IMG/VR virus record: IMGVR_UViG_3300022591_000035
Span: 1 to 34,969 of that record
Length of the DNA: 34,969 nt
Strand: one strand, 5' to 3'
Origin: a virus
Of the stretch, positions 3,423 through 34,933 are shown one piece after another (the stretch's first letter is position 1; each line of letters begins with the position of its first letter). Made by a program: the position numbers and the translations under genes. A model generated the notes under the pieces. That model saw only the letters and a program-made list of their open reading frames with translations, ran no database searches and had not been told where the DNA came from.

Positions 3423-3558
3423 CGAGTGGGTACATCTAGTGGCGTCTCTAGTCGGGATTATCTCAGCATTGTTACTGGTGAAGATATGGTTGGAGAAGAC
3501 AATAGATGAGGGAGACGAAGGCGGAGGCGAAGACGAGGATGGAAGAGGACTAAAATGA
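3412..3558 (+). CDS. 48-aa single-pass membrane protein
   Basis: ATG at 3412 with AGGAG at 3401-3405. It overlaps the end of the previous gene, and its TGA overlaps the thymidylate synthase ATG (ATGA at 3555-3558). The product has a short N-terminus (MSDSEW), one hydrophobic helix (about residues 9-27, [15 protein letters not shown]), a short amphipathic stretch and a strongly acidic Gly/Glu/Asp tail ([14 protein letters not shown]). The double start/stop overlap argues that it is translated. A one-helix early phage protein might act at the host membrane, but nothing in the sequence identifies a target. It could also mainly couple translation of its neighbours. Confidence 0.6.
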
Positions 3559-4361
3559 AACAATATCTTGAGTTGATGGAATATACTCTACGAGAGGGTA
3601 CGCTCCGCGCAAACCGCACTGGCACTGACGCTCGCTCAACCTTCGGCTGGCAAATGCACTTCGATCTCAGCGCTGGCTTTCCTCTGTTGACGACCAAGAG
3701 CTTGTCCCTGCGGTCAATCCTCCACGAACTACTGTGGTTTCTACGAGGAGAAACTAACATCCGCTCTTTGCAGGAAAAGGGTGTGCATATCTGGGACGAG
3801 TGGGCCGACGAGAAGGGTGATCTCGGTCCCGTCTACGGAGAGCAGTGGAGGCGCTGGAAGACTGCGGATGGGCAAGTAATTGACCAGATTGCTTTACTCG
3901 TCGAGAACCTGAAAAGTGACCCGGATTCTCGTCGGCATCTGGTTATCGCCTGGAATCCTGGCGACATCAGACATATGGCTCTCCCTCCCTGTCACATCTT
4001 CTTCCAGCTCTACGTCCAACCTGCGAATCCTCGACCTCGTCTCTCCTGCCAAGTGTATCAGTGCAGTGCGGACATCTTCTTGGGAGTTCCCTTCAACATC
4101 ACCTCATATGCTTTGCTGACGATGATGCTAGCGCAGGTCTGCAACTATCAGCCGGGAGACCTTCTCTACATCCTGGGTGATGCACATCTCTACTGTAATC
4201 ATGAGGATCAGGCGAGACTTCAACTGAAGCGAATTCCCCGGACTCTTCCCAGGATGCGCTTGAACCTCGAGGTCACGGACCTGTTCGACTTCACTTTCGA
4301 AGACTTCACTCTCGAAGGCTACGCTCCCTATCCGCACATCGCAGCGCCCATCGCCATCTGA
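3555..4361 (+). CDS. thyA: Thymidylate synthase (ThyA-type)
   Basis: Converts dUMP and 5,10-methylene-THF to dTMP and DHF. The 268-aa length matches the family (E. coli 264). Seen: [11 protein letters not shown] near residue 21, [18 protein letters not shown] (residues 78-95), the phosphate-binding pair [11 protein letters not shown] (R126, R127), the catalytic motif [14 protein letters not shown] with Cys146, [13 protein letters not shown] whose Asn181 selects dUMP over dCMP, and the C-terminal ending API.I. The usual YQRS motif reads YQCS: the phosphate-binding arginine (E. coli R166) is Cys170, codon TGC at 4062-4064. The ATG overlaps the 48-aa gene stop. Dihydrofolate reductase follows 7 nt later, completing the folate cycle. 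The Asn and the Trp pair argue for a true dTMP synthase rather than a dCMP hydroxymethylase. Confidence 0.95.
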
Positions 4362-4368
4362 GCAGAGC

Positions 4369-4863
4369 ATGGTGAAAAGAGTGTCCCTGCTAGCGGCTGT
4401 TTCCCGAAACCGTGTCATCGGCTACCAGCAACGTCTTCCCTGGAACTTACCGGCAGACCTACAACATTTCCGCGAAATAACCTGGGACAAAACGGTGATT
4501 ATGGGGAGGAAGACCTGGGAGTCACTGCCAAGAGTCTTGCCGCGCCGACAGAATATCGTGGTCAGTCGTAATGCAAGTTTACTTACTCCCGGAGCTACCC
4601 TAGTCCGGTCGATCAAGGAAGCGTTCGCCCTAGCCTCAAGTGAAATCTTTGTCATTGGGGGAGCTGATCTCTACCAGCAAACTCTCCCCCTGGCGCACAG
4701 ACTCTTCCTAACCGAGGTCCAAGTGGAAGTACCTGGCGATGTCTTTTTTCCTGAAATCAATGCAGGAGAGTGGATAGAGATCTCGCGTCAATCTTTCGAG
4801 GGCAAACCTGCCTTCGACTTCGTAGTCTACACAAGCATGCGTATTGCAAGGAAAGGATGTTGA
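4369..4863 (+). CDS. folA: Dihydrofolate reductase
   Basis: Regenerates THF from the DHF made by the adjacent thymidylate synthase, using NADPH. At 164 aa it has the typical bacterial type I length. Seen: LLAAVSRNRVIGYQQRLPWN, the LPWNLPADLQHF active-site helix with Trp25 and Asp30, the NADPH-binding VIMGRKTWESLP, RRQNIVVSRN, the second Gly motif IFVIGGADLYQ (about residues 92-102), and the C-terminal strand FDFVVYTS. All key residues are present. It follows thyA by 7 nt and precedes the DUF3310-like gene by 2 nt, so the three form one unit. GC is lower than in late genes. The thyA-folA pair is common in large-burst phages that raise dTTP supply. Confidence 0.95.
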   Translation: MVKRVSLLAAVSRNRVIGYQQRLPWNLPADLQHFREITWDKTVIMGRKTWESLPRVLPRRQNIVVSRNASLLTPGATLVRSIKEAFALASSEIFVIGGADLYQQTLPLAHRLFLTEVQVEVPGDVFFPEINAGEWIEISRQSFEGKPAFDFVVYTSMRIARKGC

Positions 4864-9400: not shown

Positions 9401-11234
9401 TATCAAAGTGGTCCTGATTAGTGGAGCGTATACCATTAGCCATGACCCGTTCTACTGCTCCTGGGTCCATGTGTTGAGGAACTTCCCAAATACGGGTTAT
9501 AGGATTGTTTGCAGTCTTCAATGGATCAATTCGCTCAAGCCCCATGTCAGCCCATTCTGGAGTCTCTCGAGGAGTAAGCTTGAAATCTCCTACTGCCAGC
9601 TTAAAGCCATCTATTAGAAACTTAGCAGAAACTTCCCCCTCCAGGGGCAGAATGTTGTGGAAAAGTTTTCGCTCTGCTTCAGAAACGTCCGGTCGCCGAA
9701 GCTGCTCCTCAATCATCTTGACCGGAAAGGAGATGCGCCTTGGGTCTAGGCGGCCAAGGGTCTTGGCGGTGTAACGCTCTTGCTGGAGGAGAGGGCCAAG
9801 AGCACTTGTTGCTAGGTGGATGAGTTCTTCCGGCGGTCGAGCCGTATTAAGCTCGATTACTCCGTGATACAGAGGAGGGATATCGGGATTTGTAGCGGGA
9901 GGGGGAACTTGCTCCTTCGGCTTTTCAACAGACTTCGACTTGAGCTCCGCGAGAAACTCCGCAGGGTCCACCGGGTCTCCCCGACGCAGCTCCTCGCGCT
10001 TACCCTTGAGCTCCGCAGCCTTGTTCGAGAACACGGCGGCTTGGCGCTCTCCGACTTCCCCGCCACGAGCCAGGGCCTGCTTGGCCATTTCTTCGTAGTG
10101 GGAGATGGCGCGCTCGAGTGCCCGGCCTTGGCCGTAGGAGGTGGTGGGGGTTTCCTCCTTGGGCTCGAGAGTGAACGCCTCGCCCTCGGGGAACTCTCCA
10201 TGCTCGTCTCCGTATACCACTTCCTTGGCCATCGGGGAGGAAGCGGCCTCGTCCAGGTCCTTCCCATCTTGGCGCAGGGACTCGTATCCCTCCTTCTTCT
10301 TCATCTTGCGAATCGGGAAGGGGTTGGAGTCGTTCACCTGCCGCTTCAGCGACTCGACGATGCTGCCTTCTTCGGTCAGCGGGCTGGTGTCTTTGGCGTG
10401 GGCGATCTCCTGGGCCTTGGCTAGGATGTCGGCGGAGGACACCCCGCTGTCGGCGGCGGCCTCGTGCAGGGTGGTTTCGGGCTTTGTCGCGGAGACCTTG
10501 AGCCCGCCCTTCATGAAGGGGAGGAGGGCAACCACGGCCTCGGGGAGAGCCTGTCCCACAGCCTGGGCCTTCCAGGCGTCTTTCTCCGACATGCCGGTTT
10601 TGCGGGCGATGTTGTAGAAGTCCTTGCCGGCATTCTCCCCGGCGGTGTGCAGGGCTTCGCCGACGACCTTCTGCGCCAGGTCGGCGTGGGCGTTGTGGGG
10701 AAGGTGCAGAATGTCTCCTGTCATCTGGTACCCGGAGAGGTAGGACTCGGCTGCGGTCGCAGGGCTGCCGGTGACTTTGTCGTAGGCAATCTTCAGCGCA
10801 CCGATGATGGGAGCGGTGAAGAACTGCGCGACCCCGCCGACGACGAACTGGGTGAGGCCCTCCAGCGGTTTGAATCCTTGGTCGATGTCGTTGTGGAGTT
10901 TATCAGTGACCTTGGTCAGCGCCTCGGGCCTCGGGCCTTGCGCCTCGGGCCTAGGGGCTTGGGCCTCAGGCGCTGAGCCTTGGGCCTTGGGCCTCGGGCC
11001 CTGCGCATCCGGATCAACGAACCTCGCGGGCTCCGCCTTCGGCTCCTCCGCCTTCTTCGCCAGCACCGGGATGTTCTTGCGGTCCAGGGGAGTAGGGCCT
11101 CCCTCCTCCCGGATCAGTCCCGCCGCGCGCTCGTCTCGCTGGGGCTGCGCCAGCTGCGTCTGCGCCTTGATGTCTTTCCAGGAGCCGGGCTTGGTGTCCT
11201 CCGGGGAGACGGTGTCGGGATCAATGAAGGGCAC
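6477..11234 (-). CDS. 1585-aa virion/ejection-type protein with large polyvalent protein domain
   Basis: Very long protein at the end of the tail/ejection block, the usual place for a DNA-ejection or inner-core protein delivered with the genome. N-terminal 110 residues are disordered, and residues about 75-105 are translated heptad repeats (AQGPRPKAQ-type). Residues about 505-805 hold motifs of large polyvalent protein-associated domains: HVVEIQSDL (about 629), then LLKRWDQRIVRETLARAAEEG, VRFATTDTMAKGEGW and SIYDRYGRDVLRYLKQLGGK (about 785). This block sits in DNA of about 47% GC while the flanks are above 60%. The rest is helical. A hydrophobic YVFSLAVMYPLLDAIY near the C-terminus could enter a membrane. 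No protease, lysozyme or kinase motif is certain. GTG start at 11234 overlaps the upstream gene by 14 nt. Confidence 0.75.
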   Translation of the reverse strand: MPFIDPDTVSPEDTKPGSWKDIKAQTQLAQPQRDERAAGLIREEGGPTPLDRKNIPVLAKKAEEPKAEPARFVDPDAQGPRPKAQGSAPEAQAPRPEAQGPRPEALTKVTDKLHNDIDQGFKPLEGLTQFVVGGVAQFFTAPIIGALKIAYDKVTGSPATAAESYLSGYQMTGDILHLPHNAHADLAQKVVGEALHTAGENAGKDFYNIARKTGMSEKDAWKAQAVGQALPEAVVALLPFMKGGLKVSATKPETTLHEAAADSGVSSADILAKAQEIAHAKDTSPLTEEGSIVESLKRQVNDSNPFPIRKMKKKEGYESLRQDGKDLDEAASSPMAKEVVYGDEHGEFPEGEAFTLEPKEETPTTSYGQGRALERAISHYEEMAKQALARGGEVGERQAAVFSNKAAELKGKREELRRGDPVDPAEFLAELKSKSVEKPKEQVPPPATNPDIPPLYHGVIELNTARPPEELIHLATSALGPLLQQERYTAKTLGRLDPRRISFPVKMIEEQLRRPDVSEAERKLFHNILPLEGEVSAKFLIDGFKLAVGDFKLTPRETPEWADMGLERIDPLKTANNPITRIWEVPQHMDPGAVERVMANGIRSTNQDHFDTTRQLGFTRSFIRDGVEHVVEIQSDLIPSIDKSSPKGQALSDLQKSRDDLLELVHSTKGPEDFPRGLKELKERFPEWVSSGENNFHYLAYRIQSKLDTRILEQELALDTKERIQALDPLLKRWDQRIVRETLARAAEEGDREVRFATTDTMAKGEGWERNSDTGKFIDPGNQSIYDRYGRDVLRYLKQLGGKPTADGEWISVPVPSSSVVEMFTFDPVRAARQLLNSERDLREGLMAILQKRGEEAARQVEQAYRNLQSSSTIDTLEKLQREVQGTWGRDQNAEMENMQLQKAAQAEGLTPEIASKIQDHLDQPHLLEGKARELYDKYYVPTRASVQDSWRRIAKVDPNNPLLVDWHGRIPLRGFWEKFFGGLTNSTLGSSQGLGGKPSTLRARSIFQIPGPDGRPLIISQGKDGSVLAWSNKKATMLSPKEKPLRPGMTFMSLPVEQVPNQRAIESATNLKYVDNPIFIAGVKAAELKKYANLLDTLNRVMESPVWKSMTSKAKNPAEGHRRIKYTERLPVLDKFAADPQLAEVLEDFLKPSPDPRSLVGVLHGLTNFAIKSFMLIPIKHIDNEAVHYITESGLTGMIPNPARLKALSDATTSVLKQDHLQREIAKANGSLLYPKTLLDGWMTKTMDAYITKAKADPDFLSSLKKAGLAPVQFFDGWSQMSNMGMWATRDILYTARILEHLNQGMKLPEAIQQVDKFMPTYKLPSRISLFGVGPKQRWVSEFMQNKALTVFSRYHHGALSALGNSVKGLAEKGHQVESLNHIAGYVFSLAVMYPLLDAIYTKMTGDEEHEIRRAGGLHYLEDAGKIHRGEKRPEAAFMAIITPSPVPYALLQASPGVNTDFYFRRQIRNPEDSPALQATDTAKFIGKQQFNPAGMSPVIEGRQSFSDWWLSQLFDVVKKSDPSKVAKAQQRNKSSSASAYSHRSAAEQSLDKSLDERIEDSTSPAETKRLLRLKDKLQKESLP
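8820..9720. other. Low-GC island inside the 1585-aa gene
   Basis: Sample 60-nt counts give about 42-52% GC here, against 62-72% in sampled lines on either side. The reading frame continues without a break. The island matches the block carrying the EIQSD and YDRYGRDVL motifs, so it looks like a domain acquired or exchanged in frame. The left edge near 8815 is sharp; the right edge grades out by about 9900. Confidence 0.6.
10921..11005. repeat. Heptad repeat array R2
   Basis: About twelve 7-bp units of the GGCCTNG family (for example CTCGGGC, CTTGGGC, CTAGGGG). They are translated on the minus strand as a Pro/Arg/Gln/Gly/Ala-rich linker in the disordered N-terminus of the 1585-aa protein. Confidence 0.85.
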
Positions 11235-16015: not shown

Positions 16016-16267
16016 CTATTTAAAGGACACGTGCTCGAGAAGCCAGTTGAAGCCACTGACAGATCCCGCAGTCAGCGCAACGATCCCGCCGAACATCACT
16101 CCGATGACCTTACGCGAACGCCAGACGGTGATGAGCTCTTTGAGCTCTGCGGCCATAGTTGCCTGCTCAGTGACATGGTTATTTACGATGTTGGTGAGAG
16201 CGTCAAGCTTATTTTGCATGCTATGGAGCTCTTCTGTGAGATACCCAATGATGAGCTCATCCCCCAT
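16016..16267 (-). CDS. 83-aa XhlA-like membrane protein (possible holin accessory)
   Basis: Residues 1-50 form an amphipathic helix/coiled coil (ELHSMQNKLDALTNIVNNH, ELKELITVW), followed by basic RSRK and one hydrophobic helix (about 54-72, VIGVMFGGIVALTAGSVSG). This arrangement matches XhlA/hemolysin-type single-helix proteins found in phage lysis cassettes, where they assist holins. Its ATG overlaps the SGNH gene stop by one base. No endolysin is recognised nearby, so a lysis role is uncertain. It might instead anchor a virion or superinfection protein. Confidence 0.7.
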   Translation of the reverse strand: MGDELIIGYLTEELHSMQNKLDALTNIVNNHVTEQATMAAELKELITVWRSRKVIGVMFGGIVALTAGSVSGFNWLLEHVSFK

Positions 16268-18033
16268 CAGGGGTGCAACCAGGTGATGTTGAGCCAGGTT
16301 GCTCGGTTTGTTCCGTAGCTGACCTTGGTGTTGGCGGCGAGGTGAATCCAGACGCCGATGGCTACCGTATCTCCGACGGCGAAGCGCATGCTGCTGTGAA
16401 GCCCCGTGCCGAAGTAGGAGGGGGTGGAGCCGTTGGAGAAGGTCGCCTGGCCTTCGAGGACCGAATTCCCGGCAGCTGTGCCGTTGACCAGGAGGTAGAG
16501 CAATCCGTACTGCTCACCGGTGGCCCACTCGAACCCGACAACAGCATCGACCTGGTAGACCCCGGCGGTAGGGATGGTGTAGGCGCTGCCGCTCCAGGTC
16601 CCGCTCCCGATGTTCTCCATCGTGGTATCGTAGTTGATGACGGAGAGGGTTGTGGCACCGACGGCCTGCGCGGCGGCTAGGCGCAGGGAAATGCGCGGGA
16701 TGATGGAGGCGCTGGCGGTGACGGTGAGTGGTCCGTACATCTCGTTGCCGACTTTGTAGCGCAGGGTGGTTGAACCCAAGGCCAAGGTGCTCCCGACTCG
16801 ATCGACTTTTTGCCAGGAGCCTTTGGAGTCGGAGGAGATACTGAGGGCGGTCCAGGCGCCACCGCCGGCGGAGTAGTAGCAGGCTTGGTTCGGCGGCCCG
16901 GCGTAGACGCCGTAGACTAGGGTGGCGGCATCGCTCTGCGTCAAGGTCGTAGGGTTGATGTAGAAGTCGCTTTTGTAAGGGAAGTACCAGTTTACCGGGT
17001 CCAAGGACCGGAAGGGACCGGCAGTGACGGTGAGAAGCTCTGCGTCCGCGACCACCGGGTAAGCGGGAATCCAGTCGGTGCCGCTGGCGGTGAGGACTGT
17101 GGTGAAGAGGGTGTCCGGATCGTTCCAGATGCCGGTGTTGGCGGCGGCGATGTTCGGGAAGAGGGTAGTGATCCAGGACTGCGCCTTGAGGCCCTTGAGA
17201 GCGTAGCCCAGGTGGATGAGGGAGCCAACTGCGCGAGGGTGGAGGCCGTCGGGTCCGGTCCCTCCGAGCCGGGCCGCACGGAAGTAGTTGAGAGTGATGG
17301 AGCCATCGTGGCCCTGCGCTGGGCTGAGGGCGCGGACGTAGGTGTCGAGGCTCAGCCAGTTGTCATAGTTCCCGCGAATGGTCGCGCCAGTGTCGTGGGA
17401 GAGTTGCTCGGAGCAGTACAGTCCCGACTGAACCCCGCCGATGCCGGTGAGCTCCATCCAGCAGGGAGTCACGGCTTTGTTGGGCAGAGTGGTACCGGGC
17501 GTGGAGTAGTTCCCGCTGTCGTAGCAGAGTTCACTCGCATAAATGATCTTGGCGTTGGGGAGTCCCGCGCGCAGGGCCGCGAATAAGGTAAGTGCGTCGG
17601 CCTTGACCTGGGTCAATGTCCTCCCATCGAAGTTGTTGAGGAGATCGTTCAGACCCAGAGCGACGATGACCAGAACCGGAGCAGCGGCGATGGCCGCCTG
17701 CACAGCGGTGTTGGAGCCAAAGTAGGCTGTGGTGTTGGCGCGGTAAAAGGTGTGACCGTCGATGCCGAGGTTTATGATCTGAGTGAAGGCTCCATTGTTG
17801 CGCAGAACGTCCTCGAGCAGCGTAGGCCAGGAGGGCTCGAGCATGGTGTTCTGCTGCGCGATGCTGTCCCCGATCACGACAACGGTGCTAGGAAAGGCCG
17901 GCATGGTCGAGGCGACGTAGGCGGAGACCACCGACAGGGTCTGCTTCTTGGTTGTGGAGGACTGAACCATAGGAATGATTTCAGCTCCGGTGAGGGTGCT
18001 GCTGGAGGGCAGAGCGGAGATCTTTGTAGCCAC
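16267..18033 (-). CDS. Tail protein with SGNH hydrolase and C1q-like head (copy A)
   Basis: A 588-aa virion protein. Residues 1-45 (ISALPSSSTLTGAEIIPMVQ) are the usual adaptor found at the N-terminus of phage tail fibres. Residues about 50-280 are an SGNH/GDSL esterase: block I VVVIGDSIAQ (Ser57), block II INLGIDG, block III GLND (Asn129), block V GPDGLHP (Asp262, His265). All catalytic residues are present, so it could de-acetylate or de-acylate a surface polysaccharide. The C-terminal 130 residues look like a C1q/TNF-type jelly roll (YTIPTAGVYQVDAVVGFEW). GTG start 18033 has CGGAG 7 nt upstream. A paralog lies upstream at 18360. GC is high throughout. Confidence 0.88.
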   Translation of the reverse strand: MATKISALPSSSTLTGAEIIPMVQSSTTKKQTLSVVSAYVASTMPAFPSTVVVIGDSIAQQNTMLEPSWPTLLEDVLRNNGAFTQIINLGIDGHTFYRANTTAYFGSNTAVQAAIAAAPVLVIVALGLNDLLNNFDGRTLTQVKADALTLFAALRAGLPNAKIIYASELCYDSGNYSTPGTTLPNKAVTPCWMELTGIGGVQSGLYCSEQLSHDTGATIRGNYDNWLSLDTYVRALSPAQGHDGSITLNYFRAARLGGTGPDGLHPRAVGSLIHLGYALKGLKAQSWITTLFPNIAAANTGIWNDPDTLFTTVLTASGTDWIPAYPVVADAELLTVTAGPFRSLDPVNWYFPYKSDFYINPTTLTQSDAATLVYGVYAGPPNQACYYSAGGGAWTALSISSDSKGSWQKVDRVGSTLALGSTTLRYKVGNEMYGPLTVTASASIIPRISLRLAAAQAVGATTLSVINYDTTMENIGSGTWSGSAYTIPTAGVYQVDAVVGFEWATGEQYGLLYLLVNGTAAGNSVLEGQATFSNGSTPSYFGTGLHSSMRFAVGDTVAIGVWIHLAANTKVSYGTNRATWLNITWLHP

Positions 18034-18036
18034 GAG

Positions 18037-18354
18037 TTACTCCGTTAAAAGGGGGAGATTGAGTTCGGAGAGAATGGAGTAGGACAAAGGGTCTCCCCAG
18101 AGCTCCGGGGAATTCTCAGTGATGAGGGGCTGCGGGACAGCGCGGAGTAGGTCAGACTCGGGCTGAGCCAGTGGGACGGTCTGCACATCCTGGGCTCCGC
18201 GGACGAGCTCCTGCAGGTGCCTGGGCTCCCAATGCTCCGGACAGACGTAATACCCCTGCCAGTGGCGTCGCAGGGCAGAAGCCTTGCGCTTTGCACCGCA
18301 TTGGTAGCAGACTGCGTTGTAGTCGCCATGGGCGTAATAGTCGGCTTGGGGCAT
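18037..18354 (-). CDS. Zinc-ribbon phage protein (copy A)
   Basis: A 105-aa protein starting DYNAVCYQCGAKRKAS. It has a likely metal site formed by Cys16, Cys19, Cys38 and His41 (CYQC and CPEH). RHWQGYYVCPEHWEPRH follows, the signature of a small phage protein family of unknown function often found among tail genes. The C-terminal half is variable and Pro/Leu-rich. It ends 3 nt before the SGNH copy A start and begins 5 nt after SGNH copy B ends, so each SGNH gene has its own zinc-ribbon partner. ATG 18354 has no strong ribosome site, suggesting coupling to the upstream gene. The same-length paralog is at 20132-20449. Confidence 0.82.
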   Translation of the reverse strand: MPQADYYAHGDYNAVCYQCGAKRKASALRRHWQGYYVCPEHWEPRHLQELVRGAQDVQTVPLAQPESDLLRAVPQPLITENSPELWGDPLSYSILSELNLPLLTE

Positions 18355-18359
18355 GGAGA

Positions 18360-20132
18360 CTAGGCGTGAAGGTATGTTGCGCTGAACCAGGTGGGATAAG
18401 TGTTGTTATTAAACTCTACATTCAGACCGTAGGTACTCAAGGTAGCGAAAACCTGAAGAACTTCACCGGCAATGCAAGTTATCGGAACCGTTACAGTAAG
18501 CCCTAAGTAAGGCCCTGGCGTGTCAGCCTGTGTATAGACATTAGCTCCCGGAAAATTACCAAACGTGCTGGAGTTGATTGAGAGAAACCCATTACGAGCA
18601 AGATTTACGCGCGGATAGAAAGTCACTGTGGAACTTACTAGATAGACACCGGGTAGAGTAACGTGCAGAGCAATTCCATCCCAGACGCCGAAACCTTGAT
18701 TAGTCAGAGTAGAGTCAAAGGTAATATAATCAGTACTGTATTGAACGGAGTTCCGAGCAAAAGCAAAGAAGGCTGGGAGGGAGCCTCCACCGCCTCCTGA
18801 CGAAGCACTGACTGTTAGTGAAACAGGTCCGTAGATTTCCGTGAAGGCTCCGCCACCGACCTTGTAGCGATAGACGTGGGAGCCCTGTGAGAGAGCTGCC
18901 CCGTTGGTAAGGTTCTGCCAGTTCCCTTTGTAATCGGAGGTGACGCTGAGCAGTCCCCAAGCTCCGCTGTTGTCAGAGTAATAGACAGACTGGCTGGGAG
19001 GTCCACCAGAAGCTCCTATAAGGATAGTGGAAGAAGCGTCGTGGGTTACAGTGGCAGAGGGGGAGGGAGTAAAGTAGAAACTGGTCTTGAAAGGGTAGTA
19101 CCAGTTCACTGGGTCGAGCCGGCAGAAGGGACCGTTGGCCCTGGTCATGTTCTCCTCGACGCTGGAGAAAGTGTTGGTCAGAGTCCAATTGGAGACGCCA
19201 GACGAAAGGACAGAGAGGAAGAAGGCGTCGGGGTCGAAGGTTGAGTCACTCGCCTCGGTGTTGAAATCAGGGAACAAGGTCTTGATCCAGGACTGATTCT
19301 TAAGGCCCTGGAGAACGTAGGCCGCATGAATCATGGCTCCGGCTTCGTTCGGATGGAGTCCGTCAGGACCCATACCACCGAGTCTGGCAAGACGGAAACT
19401 GTTGATTGTGAGGAACCCGTCTACACCCTGCGTGGGAGTCAGCCCACGGATGTAAGCGTCGATACTGAGCCAACTGGCAAGCTTGGTGCGATAGGCGGGG
19501 TCGACGCTCTGGATCAGGTTTTCCGGGCAGTAGGCGCCGGCGAAGATCCCACCGATGGAGGTGGTGTTCCAGAGAGCAGGGATAACCCCCTGGTTGGCGA
19601 GAGTCGTTCCGGGATTGGGGTAGTGGTAGTCATCGTAGACTAGCTCCCGCCCATACACGATCTTGGCCTGGGGGAGAGTCGCGCGCAGGTAGCCGAACAG
19701 ACCCCCGGCGTCGATCTTGATATCGTCCGTGGTATAGGCCTGAAACAGCGCATCATTGGCCCCGAGGGCTACGATCACCAGAACCGGATTAAGGGACACG
19801 CACTTCTGCGGGATAGTTTTTCCGTTGTACGGAGTGTTCACGTTGGTGTCGTGAAAGCCGTAGCCGCCGTGCGCGAGATCCACTACGGTGACGTTGGCTC
19901 CAGCCTCGACCAGCAGGGCCTGCAGGAGGTTCGGCCAGAAGTGCGGGAGCATCGGGGACTGCGCCGCGTGACTATCCCCGATAATGACGACGTTGGGGAG
20001 GAGCGTGGAGGAGACCGAGGCGGTGACGGCGGCTACGGAAGCCTGCCGGGTGGAACCGTTCTGGACCACAGGGACGACTTCAGCACCGGTGAGCGGGTCC
20101 GCCGGAGGGAGTTGCGAAATAGTTACGCCCAT
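18360..20132 (-). CDS. Tail protein with SGNH hydrolase and jelly-roll head (copy B)
   Basis: A 590-aa paralog of the protein at 16267. It shares the N-terminal adaptor (ISQLPPADPLTGAEVVPVVQ) and the SGNH core: VVIIGDSHAAQ (Ser54), GAND (Asn126), GPDGLHP (Asp257, His260), plus shared stretches such as QSWI-x-TLFP, RLDPVNWY and YRYKVG. The catalytic residues are intact. The C-terminal 150 residues again look like a beta-sandwich head (LHVTLPGVYLVSSTVTFYP) but differ strongly from copy A, and are encoded by DNA of about 47% GC against about 60-68% in the SGNH part. That suggests the receptor-binding head was exchanged. ATG 20132 overlaps the zinc-ribbon stop (TAATG). Confidence 0.87.
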   Translation of the reverse strand: MGVTISQLPPADPLTGAEVVPVVQNGSTRQASVAAVTASVSSTLLPNVVIIGDSHAAQSPMLPHFWPNLLQALLVEAGANVTVVDLAHGGYGFHDTNVNTPYNGKTIPQKCVSLNPVLVIVALGANDALFQAYTTDDIKIDAGGLFGYLRATLPQAKIVYGRELVYDDYHYPNPGTTLANQGVIPALWNTTSIGGIFAGAYCPENLIQSVDPAYRTKLASWLSIDAYIRGLTPTQGVDGFLTINSFRLARLGGMGPDGLHPNEAGAMIHAAYVLQGLKNQSWIKTLFPDFNTEASDSTFDPDAFFLSVLSSGVSNWTLTNTFSSVEENMTRANGPFCRLDPVNWYYPFKTSFYFTPSPSATVTHDASSTILIGASGGPPSQSVYYSDNSGAWGLLSVTSDYKGNWQNLTNGAALSQGSHVYRYKVGGGAFTEIYGPVSLTVSASSGGGGGSLPAFFAFARNSVQYSTDYITFDSTLTNQGFGVWDGIALHVTLPGVYLVSSTVTFYPRVNLARNGFLSINSSTFGNFPGANVYTQADTPGPYLGLTVTVPITCIAGEVLQVFATLSTYGLNVEFNNNTYPTWFSATYLHA

Positions 20133-20449
20133 TAAGTCATGTCCAATGTTTCGCCGGTCTCCGTGACCAGCGTGTAGGAAAAGAAATCACCGCTTCCGAA
20201 AGGCATCCCGTCGAGGAGAAGCGGCTGCTGAATCGTGATGAGAATGGCGGTGGGTGGCTGGGACCAGGGCACTGTCTGTACATCAACGAGCCCTCGAACC
20301 CACTCCTGCGGATGCCGGGGCTCCCAGTGCTCCGGGCAAACCAGATACCCCTGCCAGTGTTTCTGGAGCTGCGACGCCTTCCGCTTGGCTCCACACTGAT
20401 AGCATACAGCGTTGTAATCGCCGACGGATAGGTAATCTGCTTGTCCCAT
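20132..20449 (-). CDS. Zinc-ribbon phage protein (copy B)
   Basis: A 105-aa paralog of the protein at 18037. The first 45 residues are nearly identical in pattern: GDYNAVCYQCGAKRKAS, HWQGYLVCPEHWEPRH, with Cys16, Cys19, Cys38 and His41. The remainder has diverged but keeps DVQTVP. ATG 20449 is preceded by a 64-nt gap without a gene. The stop overlaps the SGNH copy B start. Pairing of each zinc-ribbon gene with an SGNH gene suggests a chaperone, adaptor or minor tail role. That is inferred only from linkage. Confidence 0.82.
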   Translation of the reverse strand: MGQADYLSVGDYNAVCYQCGAKRKASQLQKHWQGYLVCPEHWEPRHPQEWVRGLVDVQTVPWSQPPTAILITIQQPLLLDGMPFGSGDFFSYTLVTETGETLDMT

Positions 20450-26701: not shown

Positions 26702-26763
26702 TTAGGCCCCAGGCCCAAGGCCCCAGGCCCGATGCCTGAGGCCTGAGGCCCTAGGCCCTGGGT
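26702..26763. repeat. Heptad repeat array R3
   Basis: About nine 7-bp units (GGCCCCA, GGCCCAA, GGCCTGA, GGCCCTA types) filling the gap between the decoration-like gene and the 179-aa gene. The TAG stop of the 179-aa gene (26751-26753, minus) lies inside a CCTAGGG unit. Confidence 0.85.
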
Positions 26764-33532: not shown

Positions 33533-33692
33533 ACTCCTCCTGGCCGCAAAAAATCTGGCGGAGCGATAACAGTAAGCTCACTCGCCACGATTTGCCCCTA
33601 CCCGCCCAGCGCGCACCACGCGCAGGCGCACAGGCAGGCGCGCACAGGCACGCAGAGTCTGGACACGCGGGAGAGCGGGCGTGCGTCTAGCC

Positions 33693-33744
33693 TGGGCATG
33701 GGCCTAGGCATGAGGGCGTGGGCATGGGCCTAGGCATGAGGGCG
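33693..33744. repeat. Perfect 26-nt tandem repeat upstream of early promoter 1
   Basis: Two identical, directly adjacent 26-nt copies (33693-33718 and 33719-33744). Each contains the palindromic core GCCTAGGC flanked by CATG/ATG, an imperfect palindrome. The core belongs to the heptad repeat family. The array ends 7 nt before the -35 box, so it could be a pair of operators or simply a recent slippage duplication. Confidence 0.75.
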
Positions 33745-33751
33745 ATGGGGC

Positions 33752-33780
33752 TTGACAACGGGCCTGGGTTGTGCCATGAT
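33752..33780 (+). promoter_or_regulatory. Early promoter 1 (plus strand)
   Basis: TTGACA (33752-33757), 17-nt spacer, CATGAT (33775-33780; 4/6). It shares the 16-nt block TGGGGCTTGACAACGG with promoter 2, 118 nt downstream. It lies directly after the 26-nt tandem repeat. Confidence 0.6.
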
Positions 33781-33869: not shown

Positions 33870-33898
33870 TTGACAACGGCAAGGAAGTACGGTAAGAT
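33870..33898 (+). promoter_or_regulatory. Early promoter 2 (plus strand)
   Basis: TTGACA (33870-33875), 17-nt spacer, TAAGAT (33893-33898; 4/6). Transcription would begin near 33905, right at the first leader hairpin, so the RNA would start with the hairpins and the hammerhead. Confidence 0.68.
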
Positions 33899-33904
33899 GC
33901 AGGT

Positions 33905-33961
33905 GTCGGTGGGGATTGCCGCCGACGACGGGACAGGGCTAAGGCCCTGGGTGCAAGACCC
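33905..33961 (+). ncRNA. Structured 5' leader with three hairpins
   Basis: Hairpin 1: GTCGGTGG (33905-33912) with CCGCCGAC (33919-33926), 8 bp with one G-U. Hairpin 2: CAGGGC/GCCCTG (33934-33939/33944-33949) with a TAAG loop. Hairpin 3: GGGT/ACCC (33949-33952/33958-33961) with a GCAAG loop. Together with the downstream ribozyme the leader is almost wholly paired. It could protect the 5' end or form a folded domain; no known riboswitch class is recognised. Confidence 0.5.
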
Positions 33962-33987
33962 GGTTCTTTAACAAGGTGGATTCTCCT

Positions 33988-34051
33988 ATCTCCTATACGC
34001 CGGGTTACGCCTGGTGCTGATGAGCGGGCAGTTACCCGCGAAATAGGAGAT
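33988..34051 (+). ncRNA. Type III hammerhead ribozyme
   Basis: All conserved elements are present in order. Stem III 5' strand ATCTCCTAT (33988-33996), then the cleavage-site nucleotide A (33997). Stem I pairs CGCCGGG (33998-34004) with CCTGGTG (34010-34016), 7 bp including two G-U, loop TTACG. Core CTGATGA lies at 34017-34023. Stem II pairs GCGGG (34024-34028) with CCCGC (34035-34039), loop CAGTTA. Core GAAA lies at 34040-34043, and stem III closes with ATAGGAGAT (34043-34051), a perfect 9-bp match. Cleavage is expected between 33997 and 33998. Stem III is the open one, so this is type III. The AGGAG ribosome site of the next gene is inside stem III. I infer that cleavage exposes it. Confidence 0.93.
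34045..34049 (+). promoter_or_regulatory. Shine-Dalgarno site sequestered in ribozyme stem III
   Basis: AGGAG, 8 nt before ATG 34058, is fully base-paired with CTCCT (33990-33994) in the intact ribozyme. After cleavage the pairing strand is on a separate 5' fragment and may dissociate. Two offset copies of TCTCCTAT (33982-33989 and 33989-33996) offer alternative pairing registers. Confidence 0.75.
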
Positions 34052-34057
34052 GGAAAA

Positions 34058-34606
34058 ATGGCAACGACGACGGAGAAAATGGTGAAGTTCCTCGAGCGTA
34101 AGGTGGATTTCGAGGCGGGGATTACCAGATTCACGTATGAAGATAGCAGCCAGGTGACGTATGACCTGGGCGATCTGCCGACGGAGATGGTGTATAATCT
34201 CGCCCTTTGGGGGATTAACGAGAAGGTCGGGAATAGTACAGCCAACTTCGCCAAGGCTAGGGATTGCGCTGGGGCGAGGCGGAAGTGCCAGGCCATCTGG
34301 GATGCGCTCTGCAGGGGTGAGTGGGAGGTCAAGATGTCGGCAGAGGATAGGGCGGCGCAGGCCCTGGCGGCTAAGGCCGAGCTGGTGGATGAGGCGTTCG
34401 TCAGGGAGTATGGCCAGAAATCTGCCGGGGCGTGCGCCGCATATGCGGCGAAGAAGGGCACCACGCTGAAGGTGGCGGCGGATTTCCTGGCAGGGATAGG
34501 GAATATCGCGGCACGGGTGGCGGATATTCAGGCCGAGCGGGCGAAGGCCAAGCCGATGGTGGCCGAATCAGCGGATGAGCTGGTCGATACGCTGTTCGGG
34601 GCCTAG
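34058..34606 (+). CDS. 182-aa early phage protein, ribozyme-controlled
   Basis: First rightward gene after the control region. ATG 34058 follows AGGAG with an 8-nt spacer, inside the hammerhead's stem III. The N-terminal half (KMVKFLERKVDFEAGITRF, LGDLPTEMVYNLALWGINEK, NSTANFAKAR, IWDALCRGEWEVK) resembles a phage protein family of unknown function with an L-x-x-HG/WG-x-N/x-K-x-x-x-S pattern and GEW. The C-terminal half is Ala-rich and helical (AAQALAAKAELVDEAF, TTLKVAADFLAGIGNIAARV). It is acidic overall with no membrane segment. The stop codon TAG is formed by the first unit of heptad array R9. An early host-takeover or DNA-associated role is possible, but nothing specific is shown. Confidence 0.8.
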   Translation: MATTTEKMVKFLERKVDFEAGITRFTYEDSSQVTYDLGDLPTEMVYNLALWGINEKVGNSTANFAKARDCAGARRKCQAIWDALCRGEWEVKMSAEDRAAQALAAKAELVDEAFVREYGQKSAGACAAYAAKKGTTLKVAADFLAGIGNIAARVADIQAERAKAKPMVAESADELVDTLFGA

Positions 34607-34642
34607 GGACTAGGGACTAGGGCCTAGGGCCTAGGGACTAGG
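34601..34642. repeat. Heptad repeat array R9 (cleanest copy)
   Basis: Six perfect units: GCCTAGG, GACTAGG, GACTAGG, GCCTAGG, GCCTAGG, GACTAGG. This defines the family consensus GMCTAGG. Its first unit supplies the TAG (34604-34606) ending the 182-aa gene. Confidence 0.92.
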
Positions 34643-34667
34643 GGTAGCATCCAGCCGTTCAGGGTAT

Positions 34668-34701: not shown

Positions 34702-34720
34702 GATTAGATAGGAGATTGAG

Positions 34721-34933
34721 ATGGACAAGCTAGAGCCGAATGTGGTAGTTACGCTGACGCACCAGACTGGCGCTGTGCGGATATGCCCGATCTGGGAGTG
34801 CGAGATGAGCGCAGGCGAGCTGCAGGACCAAGCGCTGAACGTGGGACTGGCGTTTGCAGTGGAAGAGGCCGGCGGGTGGGTGACCGTGCGGGTGTCGGAC
34901 TTTCGGACGCGGGGAGAGCGCGATGAAGCATAG
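34721..34933 (+). CDS. 70-aa early hypothetical protein
   Basis: ATG 34721 with AGGAG at 34710-34714 (6-nt spacer). The ribosome site lies in an ATAGGAGAT block identical to that of the 182-aa gene. The protein is small and beta-rich (NVVVTLTHQTGAVRICPIW, then VGLAFAVEEAGGWVTVRVSD) with a charged tail. I do not recognise a family. The conserved ribosome-site block suggests common control with the preceding gene. Confidence 0.7.
   Translation: MDKLEPNVVVTLTHQTGAVRICPIWECEMSAGELQDQALNVGLAFAVEEAGGWVTVRVSDFRTRGERDEA

Follow-up and report, generated by a model that had tools for sequence, protein, structure and literature searches.

The 34,969-nt stretch of viral DNA analyzed here (the whole of it is called the window) carries a complete type III hammerhead whose open stem is built on the ribosome-binding site of the gene that follows. 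That the element is a hammerhead ribozyme we regard as nearly certain, and we consider it quite probable that the ribozyme is active. We lean modestly toward a further role, in which the hammerhead ends the leader of the early operon and doubles as a translation lock. Support for the lock comes from sequence, structure, covariation with a relative, and the predicted burial of the Shine-Dalgarno sequence before the cut and its exposure afterward.

The hammerhead occupies positions 33986–34053 (window coordinates are on the plus strand unless noted) and was read directly and with a mechanical descriptor, which gives 8, 5 and 10 pairs in stems I, II and III. The 5' strand of stem III (33986–33996) consists of CTATCTCCTA and U16.1 (33996), and up to the predicted cut the sequence reads ATCTCCTA-U16.1(33996)-A17(33997). 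Hammerheads cleave 3' of H17, here an A (A33997) and not a G, which places the predicted cut between 33997 and 33998. Stem I is the hairpin CGCCGGG-TTACG-CCTGGTG (33998–34016), in which CGCCGGG (33998–34004) and CCTGGTG (34010–34016) form seven pairs, two of them G-U, with an eighth (T-G) possible. There follow the core strand CUGAUGA (C3 to A9, 34017–34023, with G8 at 34022), the stem II hairpin GCGGG-CAGTTA-CCCGC (34024–34039, five pairs including G10.1-C11.1, which is G34024-C34039), the core strand GAAA (34040–34043, with G12 at 34040, A14 at 34042 and A15.1 at 34043) and the 3' strand of stem III, TAGGAGATGG (34044–34053). Stem III comprises eight pairs (TAGGAGAT, 34044–34051) and the A15.1-U16.1 pair (U33996-A34043), and is lengthened by T33987-G34052 and C33986-G34053. 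The element thus has the CUGANGA and GAAA core, closed stems I and II and an open stem III, as type III hammerheads do. A preliminary description of this DNA had proposed both core strands, the A at H17, a 7-bp stem I, a 5-bp stem II and a perfect 9-bp stem III, with two G-U pairs in all; these are all borne out, stem III proves two pairs longer, and the cut, G8 and A14 had been correctly assigned. By eye, we saw no pseudoknot between loops I and II; the CAG..A type of loop II is also present in the relative L003 (below) and in other members of our sample, which is suggestive only with regard to tertiary contact between loop I and loop II. No Rfam riboswitch was found in the leader, and no domain is inserted into the short, closed hairpins of stems I and II.

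The window is that of a tailed phage, with terminase, portal, capsid, DNA polymerase and primase genes, and the hammerhead precedes the first gene of its rightward operon. Upstream are two sigma-70-like promoters, TTGACA-17-CATGAT (33752–33780) and TTGACA-17-TAAGAT (33870–33898), both consensus matches only, with a transcript start expected near 33905. The ribozyme had been placed between early promoters and the first early gene; two promoter-like sites and the first gene of the operon do flank it, the word “early” reflecting promoter type and gene order. Gene 1 (182 aa, 34058–34606), which had no match in Pfam or PHROGs, starts with an ATG at 34058, 8 nt after its Shine-Dalgarno sequence TAGGAG. 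Gene 2 (70 aa, 34721–34933) has in its Shine-Dalgarno region (34709–34716) the same 8-mer, TAGGAGAT, as stem III. A third copy (34956) lacks a clear gene after it and for that reason is not counted as a ribosome-binding site of the operon. Elsewhere in the window, a thymidylate synthase gene adjoins a dihydrofolate reductase gene (3555–4863), and on the minus strand two similar gene pairs (16267–18354 and 18360–20449), each encoding a GDSL-type hydrolase (assigned by a Pfam match for the first of the two) and a small Cys-containing protein, apparently reflect a duplication. Short G+C-rich tandem repeats like GGGCCTAGGGACTA occur at 4–58, 10919–11006, 26704–26758, 33690–33749 and 34599–34643, in intergenic spots and inside one large open frame.

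Several observations indicate that the hammerhead is genuine. First, after the whole window was dinucleotide-shuffled 300 times, a search of both strands gave one loose match (4/6/4 pairs, against 8/5/10 in the real sequence), or 0.003 loose-descriptor matches per shuffled window, in keeping with the earlier judgment that a chance origin is very unlikely. Second, positions 33980–34060 fold with a z score of -5.7; the minimum-energy fold is not the hammerhead, an alternative inner hairpin being favored by 1.3 kcal/mol when the full leader is folded with the hammerhead core forced and loop-loop contacts uncounted. Third, we built an independent covariance model, R1, from 26 diverse type III hammerheads, which we collected by scanning IMG/VR and a single bacterial genome contig for sequence patterns and then aligned, leaving out both the window and L003. 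Since the descriptor was used to select the training set, the pairing within that set is in part built in; this does not apply to the window and L003 scores. R1 finds the window site with 28.9 bits (E 4.4e-6) as its sole match within the window. Run against the window, L003 and L011, it gives three matches: the window site, its counterpart from this same virus in L011, and the L003 hammerhead (34.5 bits, E 8.7e-8). The complete type III hammerhead of the preliminary description is thereby supported by an independent model and a covarying relative. The search with the Rfam type III model that it had called for was negative: RF00008 (Hammerhead_3, gathering score 48.5 bits) gave no match to the window or to a short stretch of it even at E 10. 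The preliminary description had counted the lack of a significant covariance score as a refutation, and we therefore examined whether this model detects phage type III hammerheads at all. At its gathering score it found none in ten contigs, viral or bacterial, where the descriptor places type III hammerheads, although RF02276 detected type II hammerheads in two of them. Since at this cut-off RF00008 misses such candidates at every one of the ten loci, its negative result is not decisive; the current Rfam model overlooks type III phage hammerheads. The window element shares topology and core with Hammerhead_3, but that model gives it no score, and we therefore do not file it under that entry. 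Comparison of the leader DNA with GenBank phages revealed no similarity, as was the case for three other hammerhead loci, and the sole match of a protein search with gene 1 was another contig of this virus; the two contigs are identical where they overlap and thus are not independent.

Further evidence comes from L003 (IMGVR_UViG_3300033067_002415), whose terminase is 70% identical to that of the window and in which reading and descriptor reveal a second, diverged hammerhead in an equivalent divergent leader. Among the 20 stem pairs compared, both partners differ in 10, a single partner differs in 1, and 9 are the same; none is broken, and the core strands are identical. The two hammerheads are alike in their position in the leader, in a boxA-like element, in having the Shine-Dalgarno sequence within stem III, and in loop II (CAGGTA in L003, CAGTTA in the window). 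They differ in the compensatory pairs, found in all three stems, in H17, which is U in L003, and in the first gene. A distant homologue (26%) of window gene 1 is the second gene of the L003 operon, which argues that the ribozyme belongs to the leader rather than to one gene. In L003 one additional U separates A9 from stem II, an insertion of a kind present in L160, and this may count against the lock. Among 24 other terminase relatives, a search with R1 found no type III hammerhead, and Rfam at its cut-offs found no ribozyme in terminase-relative loci; MW202796.1, a sequenced phage with a terminase 42% identical, has no hammerhead in the stretch examined. In L219 (terminase 45% identical), two type II hammerheads lie between early genes on the minus strand (9012 and 10052), one of which precedes a gene judged by eye to be DUF932-like.

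The Shine-Dalgarno sequence of gene 1 (TAGGAG, 34044–34049) is itself part of the 3' strand of stem III, and stem III tracks the Shine-Dalgarno sequence of its own phage, ATAGGAGAT in the window versus CTGGAGGATTG in L003, where the latter 11-mer is found in five copies, each with an ATG 14–15 nt downstream. Shine-Dalgarno and anti-Shine-Dalgarno sequences thus share one stem and would be parted by the cut, as in engineered masking switches. The preliminary description mentions neither this overlap nor the tandem repetition of the stem III 5' strand, the boxA-like element upstream, or the frequent location of phage type III hammerheads at ribosome-binding sites (all treated below). In folding calculations that presuppose departure of the 5' piece, the probability that the Shine-Dalgarno sequence is unpaired rises between uncut RNA and 3' product from 0.00 to 0.67 in the window, 0.00 to 0.37 in L003, 0.00 to 0.21 in L048, 0.00 to 0.53 in L240 and 0.30 to 0.66 in the first ribozyme of L196. 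Where the Shine-Dalgarno sequence lies downstream of stem III, cutting is predicted mostly to change little, L134 and L176 being exceptions. Full or near-full masking is exceptional among the hammerheads collected: it is seen in the window, L003, L048 and L240, and partially in L196, L032, L156, L026 and L050. The genes downstream in L048, L240 and L196 are unrelated to one another and to those of the window, which makes more than one origin of the arrangement probable. The patterns that picked out L048 and L240 require a Shine-Dalgarno sequence, and these two loci hence show recurrence, not frequency. Such selection apparently also explains L024, a 116-kb viral contig with a type I hammerhead whose stem III shares the letters TAGGAG/CTCCTA with that of the window, as the search pattern asked for TAGGAG. 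In L240 (positions 1–2145; Acidimicrobiaceae MAG contig JAERSO010000174.1) the masking type III hammerhead is followed by four type II candidates between genes, three of which pass Rfam RF02276.

These features suggest how a lock could operate. Transcripts from the two promoter-like sites would fold into the hammerhead, and in the uncut RNA the gene 1 Shine-Dalgarno sequence would be paired in stem III with the anti-Shine-Dalgarno strand upstream. Self-cleavage at 33997/33998 would detach that strand from the mRNA, and the 5' piece, which measures about 93 nt and includes boxA and the hairpins nearest the promoter, would depart. The new mRNA would have a 5'-OH at 33998, two short hairpins, an exposed ribosome-binding site and a 60-nt leader, and translation of gene 1 would depend on cleavage and release. 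Because stem III is built on the gene 1 ribosome-binding site, cutting probably permits gene 1 translation. The weak step is release, since the cut stem III duplex is still worth about -17 kcal/mol and the 5' piece could leave slowly without a helicase or ribosome. We consider unlikely a much broader proposal: that hammerheads with the ribosome-binding site as their open stem arose repeatedly in phages, that self-cleavage sets the time at which early translation begins, and that the leader, once released with its anti-Shine-Dalgarno sequence, acts in trans on other early genes that share the Shine-Dalgarno sequence.

A rival possibility is plain processing: the hammerhead would trim or separate phage mRNAs directly upstream of a ribosome-binding site, as many in phages seem to do, with the overlap of stem III and the Shine-Dalgarno sequence being a by-product of close packing. 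The matches listed include 37 non-redundant type III hammerheads, and in 30 of these a Shine-Dalgarno sequence, a start codon and an open frame lie no more than 60 nt from GAAA; the same is true of 18% of positions drawn at random from these strands and of 63 of 116 type I hammerheads. Part of the sample came from patterns requiring GGAGG and is biased accordingly; in the subset from a scan blind to the Shine-Dalgarno sequence, the count, made by hand from the table of matches listed, is 25 of 31. Type III phage hammerheads thus commonly cluster at ribosome-binding sites. Most of them have the Shine-Dalgarno sequence beyond stem III, so masking is not their general purpose, and this favors plain processing. 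Two descriptor matches, L036 and L243, were judged false, with poor context and weak stems. In many phage loci, among them L143, L026, L156, L050, L104 and L172, a strong hairpin at the end of the preceding gene stands directly 5' of the type III hammerhead. The 40 nt upstream of phage type III hammerheads fold with a mean of -11.5 kcal/mol, versus -7.8 kcal/mol at random positions, and the upstream hairpin may act as if to protect the new 3' end. Plain processing is also consistent with the type II hammerheads that L219 carries between its early genes and with prophage hammerheads that flank single genes or blocks, as reported earlier (PMC3088659). It accounts less well for masking that is complete in both the window and L003 and has been kept despite changed pairs, and for a window stem III of 10 pairs versus the usual 4–6 among the matches listed. 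We thus give plain processing a real but minor chance, and the translation lock remains our preferred reading.

Some features of the leader would fit a transcriptional role. Just 5' of a boxA-like element, TTCTTTAACAA (33964–33974), which resembles the rrn/nut antitermination element, is a hairpin, CTGGGTGCAAGACCCGG (33947–33963), that also scored as terminator-like. L003 has CTCTTTAACAA at the equivalent place (minus strand, near 10512), and in both leaders the element sits behind a hairpin, 22–24 nt upstream of stem III, which suggests antitermination by host Nus factors. RNase III makes a comparable cut in rRNA leaders. Self-cleavage might, in this sense, part the boxA/hairpin leader from the mRNA once an antitermination complex had formed. 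A similar boxA-like element lies 148 nt upstream of one L196 ribozyme, but none was found near the other type III hammerheads examined, making this role unlikely as the main one.

Still less probable is that the 5' cleavage product serves as a small antisense RNA whose 3' end pairs with the Shine-Dalgarno sequences of further early genes and tunes the operon. That end would carry a tandem anti-Shine-Dalgarno, TCTCCTATCTCCTA (33982–33995), of which the second copy is the stem III 5' strand and the first complements 10 nt in the Shine-Dalgarno region of gene 2. Gene 2 is calculated to pair with the tail at -16.7 kcal/mol, and the five CTGGAGGATTG copies of L003 at -18 to -19 kcal/mol. Repeated Shine-Dalgarno sequences, however, are also produced by duplication or selection within an operon; L004, a relative free of the ribozyme, has early genes with similar ribosome-binding sites, and there is no sign of a stable 5' piece. 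Finally, that the leader is a folded element that has stopped cleaving, or a chance look-alike, is equally improbable in view of the shuffles, the covariation with L003 and the intact core, even though Rfam gives no match and, in PMC3088659, 4 of 18 consensus-conforming hammerheads were inactive in vitro, the other 14 being active.

How, then, does the window compare with known systems? In the type III hammerheads described from bacteria, phages and prophages (PMC3088659; PMC6155905), the core, three stems, open stem III and gene-adjoining position are as in the window. Hammerheads adjoin genes in phages and prophages (PMC3088659), and a 2017 review treats the role of prokaryotic hammerheads as open (PMC6155905). 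A close precedent is HHphage of haloviruses HF1 and HF2 (PMC3088659), which lies 13 nt ahead of the open frame that comes first in an early transcript; the mapped 5' end of that transcript is within 3 nt of the cleavage site. HF1 and HF2 are archaeal viruses and their core is a variant linked to high salt, whereas the window core is consensus; and the available text describes for them no Shine-Dalgarno sequence in a stem, as there is in the window. Masking of a ribosome-binding site by stem III, with a covarying relative, is likewise found in the window and is not described in the accessible portions of PMC3088659 and PMC6155905. Our search of the open-access literature found no description of a natural hammerhead that masks a Shine-Dalgarno sequence. 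Already known, then, are phage hammerheads near genes, one before an early gene (HF1/HF2) and Shine-Dalgarno masking by engineering; not found described is natural masking.

In bacteria, engineered switches in which a stem of a hammerhead or twister ribozyme contains the Shine-Dalgarno sequence turn translation on upon cleavage (PMC5052635, PMC10966536), and active twister gives 5- to 100-fold higher expression than inactive (PMC5052635). The logic is shared with the window, the ribosome-binding site being buried in uncut RNA and exposed once cut; the engineered devices add a ligand or protein sensor, whereas the window hammerhead is natural and has no known sensor. If the translation lock is correct, at least one kind of hammerhead would have a testable role, in which the stem is the ribosome-binding site and cleavage should switch translation on, and the window would hold a natural counterpart of a switch known to date as an engineered device.
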